Positions 918 through 3,220 of a DNA stretch of 64,000 bases are shown piece after piece. The stretch comes from Deltaproteobacteria bacterium. GTDB taxonomy: Bacteria > Desulfobacterota > Desulfobulbia > Desulfobulbales > SURF-16. The notes beneath the pieces were generated by a model. It did not search any database. It was not told where the DNA came from and saw nothing but the letters and a program-made list of their open reading frames with translations. How positions within the stretch are numbered: position 1 is the first letter of the stretch; every line of letters starts with the position of its first letter. Made by a program: the position numbers and the translations under genes. The DNA is taken from positions 62,001 to 126,000 of the forward strand of contig JACRCD010000076.1 in assembly GCA_016219175.1 (NCBI GenBank), written 5' to 3'.

Positions 918-1004
918 ATGAAAATTTTGAGTCCAGGGAAAAGCATCAAGCAAGTGGCTGCCACCATAGATTGTTGTTCAGGCAAACCGTCAACAGCAAG
1001 ATAA
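918..1004 (+). CDS. Putative RiPP precursor peptide (28 aa) for the adjacent radical SAM maturase
   Basis: The gene starts with ATG, preceded five bases upstream by a strong ribosome-binding site (GGGAGG at 909-914), and stops with TAA. The peptide begins MKILSPGKSIKQ and ends in a Cys-Cys pair followed by a short Ser/Gly/Lys/Pro/Thr tail (CCSGKPSTAR). This looks like a leader followed by a Cys-containing core. It sits 66 bases upstream of a radical SAM/SPASM enzyme resembling geopeptide maturases, with an intrinsic terminator between them, a common way to make more substrate than enzyme. The layout and ribosome-binding site are what I see. That this is the enzyme's substrate is inference. 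I cannot confirm membership of a named precursor family; chance translation of a leader RNA is the alternative. Confidence 0.6.
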   Translation: MKILSPGKSIKQVAATIDCCSGKPSTAR

Positions 1005-1025
1005 CCGGGTGTTTTTTAATGATTC

Positions 1026-1054
1026 AGGAGGGCTGCGGCCTTCCTTTTTTTTTT
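1026..1054 (+). terminator. Intrinsic terminator/attenuator between precursor and maturase
   Basis: An 8-bp stem pairs 1026-1033 (AGGAGGGC) with 1038-1045 (GCCTTCCT), with one G-T pair, around a TGCG tetraloop. It is followed directly by ten T residues (1045-1054). It lies after the precursor stop and 17 bases before the maturase start, so partial read-through would set a high precursor-to-enzyme ratio. Confidence 0.8.
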
Positions 1055-1070
1055 ACCATTGAGGAAGACC

Positions 1071-2363
1071 ATGTTGTTATCGCCCTATTGCATCGTCCGC
1101 CGCCACCAGTCAATCCCCGGCCAGGTCCTGCTTTTCACGGCCAAGACCGGGGCCCTGGTCCTGCTGCCCGAGGCGGATTTTCTGGCCCTGCAAAAGGGCA
1201 ACCCCGTCCCGGAGCAGGTTGAAGCGCTTATTGACATGGGTTTTCTGGTTGGAGATGTTAAAGCCGAGCGGAGGGAGGTCCTGGGTTATCTGGATGACAT
1301 CAACCGGCTCAACCCCAACCTGACCGTGGCCATCGTTTTAGGCATGGAGTGCAACTTCGCCTGCCGCTACTGTTTCGAAGGAGAGCAGAAAGGCCGGAAA
1401 TCCATGGATGACGCCACGGCGGACCAGCTCGTCTCCTTTATCAAGAGGTGCTTCACCCCGGACAAAAAAAAGCTGGCCCTGCAATTTTACGGCGGTGAAC
1501 CGCTGCTCTACACCAAGCGCATCGTCTATCTGGCCAAGCATCTTAAACCCTTTGTCGAGGAGAGGGGCGCGCAACTCACCATCGATCTTGTCTCAAACGG
1601 CTCGCTGCTCACCGCAAAGGTGGTGGAGGAGCTGAACCCCTGGGGGCTGGACGGCGTTAAGGTGACCATCGACGGCCCGCCGGACAATCACAATCATTAC
1701 CGGCCGTTCAAGTCCGGGGAAAAGAGTTTCGACATCATTGTCAAAAACCTCAAGGAGGTTTGCGGCAAGACCAAAATACGGCTGGGCGGCAACTTTAACG
1801 AGGAAAATTACCGCGAATTCGCCTCGGTCCTCGACCTGCTGGCCCAAGAAGGGATCGGCCCGGACCAGGTTGAGCGGGTCATTTTCAATATCATCGTGCA
1901 GGTCAGGGATGAACTCACGGGCAACCGGTACCGGGGGGGGTGCGCCACGGTCAATGAGCCATGGCTGCGGGAGGCGGCGTTGCATGTCCGGGCGGAGGTG
2001 TTCCGGCGGGGCTACGTTATCCCGGAGATCGGACCGCAACCCTGCGGGGTGGAAATAGACGACGCCTTCACCGTCCATTACGACGGCAGCCTCTACAAGT
2101 GCGTGACCTGGGTGGGCCACGAGCAGTTTAAAATCGGCGATGTCTGGCAAGGGGTGGATGAATCGTACCACCAGACCCATCACGTGGGCCACTGGCAAAG
2201 GGAAGAAAAATGCAGGCAGTGCGTTTACCTGCCGCTCTGCTTCGGCGGCTGCCGCTTCATGGCCTATCAGCGCGACGGCCACATGGGCCGGGTGGACTGC
2301 CAGTTGGAGTTTTTTGACGCAGCCCTGGGGGATATGCTGCTGCAGGAGGCAACGTCACGTTGA
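1071..2363 (+). CDS. Radical SAM/SPASM peptide maturase (geopeptide-maturase-like)
   Basis: This 430-aa enzyme carries the radical SAM cluster motif CNFACRYC (Cys94, Cys98, Cys101) after an N-terminal domain starting MLLSPYCIVRRHQ. Its middle contains FYGGEPLLY and a VTIDGPPDNHN substrate/SAM-side motif. The C-terminal SPASM region has the expected multiple cysteines (CGVEIDD, YKCVTW, then CRQCVYLPLCFGGC and a final DC) for auxiliary iron-sulfur clusters. SPASM enzymes modify ribosomal peptides through thioether or other C-linked bonds. I chose ATG 1071 because GAGG lies at 1061-1064; a TTG at 1059 is possible but would overlap that site. The immediate neighbour is a 28-aa Cys-Cys peptide. 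The architecture is clear. The geopeptide-type label rests on remembered similarity of the N-terminus and SPASM segment, and the chemistry is unknown. Confidence 0.85.
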   Translation: MLLSPYCIVRRHQSIPGQVLLFTAKTGALVLLPEADFLALQKGNPVPEQVEALIDMGFLVGDVKAERREVLGYLDDINRLNPNLTVAIVLGMECNFACRYCFEGEQKGRKSMDDATADQLVSFIKRCFTPDKKKLALQFYGGEPLLYTKRIVYLAKHLKPFVEERGAQLTIDLVSNGSLLTAKVVEELNPWGLDGVKVTIDGPPDNHNHYRPFKSGEKSFDIIVKNLKEVCGKTKIRLGGNFNEENYREFASVLDLLAQEGIGPDQVERVIFNIIVQVRDELTGNRYRGGCATVNEPWLREAALHVRAEVFRRGYVIPEIGPQPCGVEIDDAFTVHYDGSLYKCVTWVGHEQFKIGDVWQGVDESYHQTHHVGHWQREEKCRQCVYLPLCFGGCRFMAYQRDGHMGRVDCQLEFFDAALGDMLLQEATSR

Positions 2364-2393
2364 TGACGGTGGGCAATGACGAAATGACGATGG

Positions 2394-2480
2394 GGTGCGC
2401 AACGGCCGTTTGTTGCGCACGCGGGATGCAACGGAAACACCACCCAAAACCCCGTGGGCACGATAAAGCCGTGCCCACCC
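2394..2480. repeat. Pair of REP palindromes (type B then type A)
   Basis: Type B: GTGCGCAA at 2395-2402 pairs with TTGCGCAC at 2413-2420. Type A: GTGGGCACG at 2454-2462 pairs with CGTGCCCAC at 2470-2478 around the loop ATAAAGC. The same two palindrome types recur at 3.1, 15.6, 21.3 and 35.2 kb. Here they stand just upstream of a REP-associated transposase gene. Confidence 0.85.
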
Positions 2481-2533
2481 TTGCTGCCTGGGCAATGACG
2501 GCAATGAAAACATTACATAAATCTTGGTGAACC

Positions 2534-3083
2534 ATGTCTCGATACCGGCGCGACCGCACCCCCGGCGCCACCTGGTTTTTCACGGTGGTGACCTGTAACC
2601 GGCAACCTGTCCTGTGCGATGAACCGGTTCGGTACGCCTTGCGGGAGGCTATCGCCCAAACCCGCGAACCACCCCTTTATCATTGACGCCTGGATTCTTC
2701 TGCCCGATCATCTGCACTGCATCTGGACCCTGCCGGCCGGGGATGTTGATTTCGCCACCCGCTGGAATCTGATCAAACGGAGGACCAGCAAGAGGGTAAA
2801 GGACGGCTATTTCACGCCCGCATTGATGACCGCGGCAAAATCATCCCGCCGGGAGCTGACCTTCTGGCAACGCCGCTACTGGGAACACCGCATTCGCGAC
2901 GAGGATGATTTTAAACACCACGTTGAATACATCCATTACAATCCGGTCAAGCACGGCCATGGCTCCGCGCCTTCGGATTGGCGATATTCGAGTTTTCACC
3001 GTTATGTGGAGAATGGCATATATCCGTCCGGTTGGGGCAGCGGGGGACCGATCCGGTTACCGGCCGACATCGGCCACGAGTAA
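2534..3083 (+). pseudogene. REP-associated tyrosine transposase (RAYT, IS200-like Y1), frameshifted
   Basis: Starting at ATG 2534 the frame reads MSRYRRDRTPGATWFFTVV, a typical RAYT N-terminus, but ends at TGA 2684-2686 after 50 codons. The rest of the family sequence continues in another frame from about 2667 (NHPFIIDAWILLPDHLHCIW). That part includes the HxH catalytic motif (DHLHC) and later YIHYNPVKHG, which carries the nucleophilic tyrosine region. One extra base, or two lost bases, near 2666 accounts for the break. RAYTs are single-domain HUH enzymes that mobilise REP palindromes, and REPs flank this gene on both sides, so family and function agree. It is either a genuine recent pseudogene or a sequencing indel. 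The downstream part can also be read as a 154-aa open frame from ATG 2619. Confidence 0.85.
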
Positions 3084-3087
3084 ATCC

Positions 3088-3220
3088 CGGTGGGCACGAT
3101 AAAGCCGGAATGACGATCGGGCGTAGGGTGCGCAACGGTTGTTTTGTTGCGCACGCGGAATGCAATGGATGAATCACCGCGCCAAACCCGGTGGGCACGA
3201 TAAAGCCGTGTCCACCCTAC
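3088..3220. repeat. REP cluster downstream of the RAYT gene
   Basis: Three REP pieces occur here: a truncated type A half (GTGGGCACGATAAAGCCGG) at about 3092-3110; a type B palindrome, GTGCGCAAC at 3128-3136 with GTTGCGCAC at 3146-3154; and a type A palindrome, GTGGGCACG at 3191-3199 with CGTGTCCAC at 3207-3215 (one mismatch). Together with the upstream pair they frame the transposase gene. Confidence 0.85.

Follow-up and report, generated by a model that had tools for sequence, protein, structure and literature searches.

The 28-residue peptide gene and the radical SAM/SPASM maturase gene near the start of the window, the 64,000-nucleotide stretch of DNA analysed here, form part of a larger conserved locus that also holds a TonB-dependent receptor and a binding-protein/kinase operon. 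On balance, we read this region as a RiPP locus of the geopeptide type that brings along genes for uptake and sensing, and whose product would be re-imported in a metallophore-like manner. The maturase is a member of the known family TIGR04280, and what is new here is the larger locus to which the peptide–maturase pair belongs. The original prediction was confined to the peptide–maturase pair and the terminator between them; it missed the TonB receptor as well as the operon for binding protein and kinase, and the MFS exporter that some loci carry. The features of the locus within the window are as follows.

1–829, + strand: TonB-dependent receptor gene, 3' part (beta-barrel PF00593, 7e-27; plug PF07715, 3e-19, upstream)
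859–894, unstranded: operator-like dyad GATAAAAGTG-N16-CACTTTTATC upstream of the peptide (single genomic copy; recurs in one relative, L066)
907–913, + strand: ribosome-binding site of the peptide, GGGAGGG, ahead of the ATG (from the sequence)
918–1004, + strand: geopeptide precursor, 28 residues, CC at residues 19–20 (conserved family)
1026–1054, + strand: intrinsic terminator/attenuator between precursor and maturase (stem-loop 1026–1045, T-run to 1054)
1071–2363, + strand: radical SAM/SPASM maturase, 430 residues (TIGR04280, 476 bits; alignment; AlphaFold2 model)

The precursor peptide is conserved together with its maturase

The open reading frame at 918–1004 encodes MKILSPGKSIKQVAATIDCCSGKPSTAR, and both the CC-containing peptide and the ribosome-binding site anticipated by the original prediction were recovered. 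A small reading frame of the pattern IVLxxGxxxxEVAxxxxCC, preceded by a ribosome-binding site, lies upstream in nearly all of the 40 loci read closely, and precursors of 28–48 residues were identified at nearly all loci across the Desulfobacterota and Nitrospirota records. In a 32-row peptide alignment the second cysteine is invariant and the first is at least 90% conserved; the first is not invariant because the geopeptides of loci L067 and L068, whose neighbouring genes are normal, carry GC and NC in place of CC. Substitutions between close pairs are mostly synonymous, with pN/pS of 0.18–0.56 for eight of the nine pairs compared; the ninth has a value of 1.1. No NCBIfam model matched the window precursor or the precursors of six relatives.

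The original prediction would have been undermined by the lack of a conserved small reading frame in relatives. That outcome did not occur: a six-frame search of 97 relative whole genomes with a precursor profile found the peptide in 49, 48 of which also encode the maturase (itself found in 49 of the 97). The peptide is thus more than a chance reading frame, since the profile-matched genomes are almost exactly the maturase genomes and the window peptide is the sole significant match in its home genome (E = 1e-10). As the profile was built from such loci, the informative part of this result is the lack of matches in maturase-free genomes together with the nine matched genomes outside the profile-building loci (G008, G013, G016, G020, G027, G029, G030, G038 and G048). 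The 49th genome, G020, keeps the peptide and its terminator with the TonB, binding-protein and kinase genes, and a search for the maturase there found none. The RiPP-like pairing of precursor and SPASM maturase put forward at the outset is supported by the TIGR04280 score, the conserved peptides and the genome-wide co-distribution, and the two almost certainly form a pair.

Two further arrangements were seen among the relatives. In G058 the first part of the peptide gene is fused by a deletion to the last part of the maturase gene, and the TonB gene is intact. In four loci from Omnitrophota and Auribacterota records (L105, L106, L108 and L109), a CC peptide stands upstream of a more distant SPASM enzyme, with a TonB homologue 2–4 kb upstream.

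The maturase belongs to TIGR04280 and is structurally closest to CteB

The maturase gene runs from an ATG at 1071 to a stop at 2363. Its product scores 476.2 bits against the NCBIfam model of geopeptide maturases, TIGR04280, above the curated cut-off of 400 and below the 600–679 bits of the best members, in agreement with the resemblance to geopeptide enzymes noted earlier. The small CC peptide beside the maturase adds to this likeness; judging by the family name, a small peptide gene next to the maturase is presumably a geopeptide trait. The protein combines an N-terminal RRE-like domain, a radical SAM CX3CX2C motif at C94/C98/C101 and a seven-cysteine SPASM domain (C325, C344, C381, C384, C390, C394 and C410), and all radical SAM and SPASM cysteines are invariant across 35 aligned sequences. 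An additional cysteine outside the canonical SPASM seven, C291 (GGC; window 1941–1943), is likewise invariant in this alignment.

An AlphaFold2 model of the maturase has a mean pLDDT of 93.9, and its nearest solved structure is CteB, followed by the anaerobic sulfatase-maturating enzyme (anSME). The latter has a similar core and SPASM domain. The sulfatase motif for anSME is C-x-P/A-x-R, and the geopeptide precursor differs in lacking it at the right spacing. CteB, the SCIFF/ranthipeptide maturase (PDB 5WHY, 5WGG), also ranks first among solved structures in a search with the maturase-family profile (E = 2e-31), and shares the RRE-like N-terminus, the radical SAM core and the SPASM domain at about 19% identity. 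In CteB the leader is bound to the N-terminal RRE as a beta-strand (PMC8326336), and by analogy the IVVL segment of the geopeptide is likely the counterpart of this strand. The maturase probably modifies the cysteine region. Ranthipeptides are characterised by a thioether to a non-alpha carbon, and those of the SCIFF type by six cysteines in about 45 residues, whereas the precursor here has two cysteines, or one in L067 and L068.

A conserved hairpin separates the precursor from the maturase

The predicted terminator was found at 1026–1054 as described, with a stem of eight pairs (five G-C and one G-T), a TGCG loop and ten Ts ending at 1054. Of 40 loci, 36 have a stem-loop 3' of the peptide, where shuffled sequences would give 3.9, and in 22 of the 40 it is followed by a U-tract (0.8 expected). 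An attenuating role agrees with the conserved position of the hairpin, but a clear U-tract is missing from about half of the relatives. Since the place of the hairpin is conserved even without the U-tract, it may act differently between lineages: in some it may terminate transcription and so hold down maturase expression, and in others form an mRNA 3' end or a translation barrier.

The dyad at 859–894 recurs in L066 with paired substitutions, which suggests an operator or an RNA hairpin; it was not seen in the other relatives. A genome-wide operator was rejected because the genome holds one copy only. No consistent sigma-54 promoter was found ahead of the genes for the peptide, the TonB receptor or the binding protein despite the linked NtrC-like regulator, a sigma-70 consensus scan over 780–2500 gave no match, and neither did Rfam.

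A TonB receptor and a sensor operon accompany the pair

The TonB gene starts at contig C49:60934, some 1.07 kb ahead of window position 1. All 66 loci with enough upstream sequence have a TonB-dependent receptor no more than 5 kb from the maturase, and such a dedicated receptor beside precursor and maturase is the arrangement expected of a peptide metallophore. Across the 97 relatives, receptor and maturase occur together in 45 genomes, the receptor alone in two, the maturase alone in four and neither in 46; some of the exceptions are contig ends. The Fisher value of 2e-20 for this co-occurrence is too strong because of shared ancestry among the relatives. The receptor is very probably a functional partner of the precursor–maturase pair.

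The receptor gene of the window itself carries an in-frame TAG just upstream of the window (C49:61543–61545; L032:7544–7546), at a tyrosine conserved in 38 of the aligned relatives. Pyrrolysine decoding was rejected, as no PylB scored over the cut-off, so the TAG represents a nonsense change or an assembly error.

An ABC_sub_bind periplasmic binding protein is encoded within 7.5 kb of the maturase in 62 of the 66 loci, and in most cases a histidine kinase accompanies it (51 of 66). At none of 20 other SPASM loci, a control from varied taxa of which several are Gram-positive, was a TonB or a binding-protein gene present. On the home contig, a divergent operon encodes the binding protein, the kinase, a response-regulator/GAF/kinase protein and an NtrC-like regulator. 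Changes of gene orientation have not broken the linkage: among Desulfuromonadales loci, receptor and binding protein are reversed in direction, yet still adjacent.

An EntS-related MFS pump is found at the locus in three lineages. In L046, L049 and L198 an MFS gene, kin to EntS and H+ antiporters, sits on the opposite strand between peptide and maturase, which are up to 1.7 kb apart; L078 has a related gene immediately ahead of the maturase, at a contig end, and L196 has one downstream of it. Most loci lack a conserved exporter or leader peptidase.

A second set of TonB, binding-protein and kinase genes is present in the same genome (L202; contig C82:12310–15091), with neither geopeptide nor maturase, so this module can exist without a geopeptide.

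Possible function of the geopeptide product

The occurrence of peptide and maturase beside an import receptor and a sensor system in many anaerobes suggests export followed by re-uptake. The hairpin would probably keep the precursor mRNA in excess, and the N-terminal RRE-like domain of the maturase may hold the leader strand (IVVLxxG) while a radical cross-link is formed at the invariant second cysteine. This cross-link would most plausibly be a thioether, to which we give an even chance; fold and sequence are closest to the thioether-forming CteB, and all Fe-S cysteines are invariant. The product would then leave the cell, in some lineages through the MFS pump and in the rest through an exporter encoded away from the locus. 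As a carrier of the metallophore kind it could be recovered by its dedicated TonB receptor, while binding protein, kinase and response regulator may sense the ligand and set expression. Re-import of the modified product is somewhat better than an even bet, and a metal carrier, as opposed to a signal or cofactor, is a tentative choice, preferred in view of the TonB receptor, the CC core and the pump related to EntS that some lineages carry. Several observations count against this reading, namely the TAG in the window's TonB gene, the geopeptide-free set on C82, the lack, at most loci, of a conserved exporter or leader peptidase, the shared ancestry behind the co-occurrence counts, and the absence of a conserved thioether acceptor residue.

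The main rival is that the modified peptide serves as a cell–cell signal: once exported, it would be detected by the binding protein together with the histidine kinase, and enter through TonB for turnover. We regard this as unlikely, though worth weighing. Peptide signalling does not usually involve a TonB receptor, and conservation of the peptide extends over orders and phyla, beyond expectation for a strain-specific signal; in its favour are the binding-protein and kinase linkage and the report, as cited in PMC8326336, of SCIFF-type ranthipeptides in clostridial quorum sensing (Chen 2020). The same conservation across orders and phyla weighs on the proposal of an antimicrobial whose target or immunity part is the TonB receptor, as does the lack of conserved immunity or peptidase-exporter genes in the neighbourhoods. 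Many sactipeptides are bacteriocins (PMC8172795, PMC8326336), and this role nonetheless seems very improbable here.

A redox cofactor precursor resembling PQQ or mycofactocin and taken up via the TonB receptor would suit a SPASM maturase, as such enzymes make these cofactors, and PQQ has a TonB receptor, PqqU, although the similarity is weak. No partner oxidoreductase is conserved beside the locus and the core lacks a conserved Glu/Tyr pair, which leaves the cofactor improbable. The CC codons followed by a terminator could also mean that the reading frame is merely a leader peptide through which the maturase gene undergoes Cys-responsive attenuation. This is the least credible alternative: amino acids far from the CC are conserved, L067 and L068 have a single cysteine, in L046, L049 and L198 the peptide is separated from the maturase by as much as 1.7 kb and by an MFS gene on the other strand, and G020 keeps the peptide with TonB where no maturase was found.

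The metallophore-like reading invites comparison with the methanobactin operons (MbnA/MbnB/MbnT), which share a short cysteine-containing precursor, a TonB transporter and, in some loci, an exporter (PMC3621798). The geopeptide locus differs in having a radical SAM maturase instead of MbnB/MbnC, and a binding-protein/kinase operon instead of FecIR-type regulation; among the locus genes scanned there was no MbnB-type maturase, the radical SAM enzyme being the only one. The annotation of TIGR04280 is that of a hypothetical system. A search of the open literature, outside which most subscription journals fall, found neither 'geopeptide' nor 'TIGR04280' in any paper, and a linkage of TonB, binding-protein or exporter genes to geopeptides was not found. 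With the receptor at every locus with enough sequence, the sensor operon and, in some lineages, the exporter related to EntS, what was an orphan maturase becomes a testable system for uptake or signalling in anaerobes. It is conceivable, if doubtful, that geopeptides are a class not previously described: widespread peptide metallophores (or nutrient carriers) made by radical SAM enzymes in anaerobic Desulfobacterota and Nitrospirota, each with a TonB receptor and a binding-protein/kinase sensor.

Downstream of the maturase, window positions 2375–3218 hold two reading frames in different frames (2534–2686 and 2619–3083). They look like a broken REP-associated transposase, with no Pfam match in support, and direct repeats, GTGGGCACGATAAAGCCG and GGGTGCGCAACGG, lie on both flanks.
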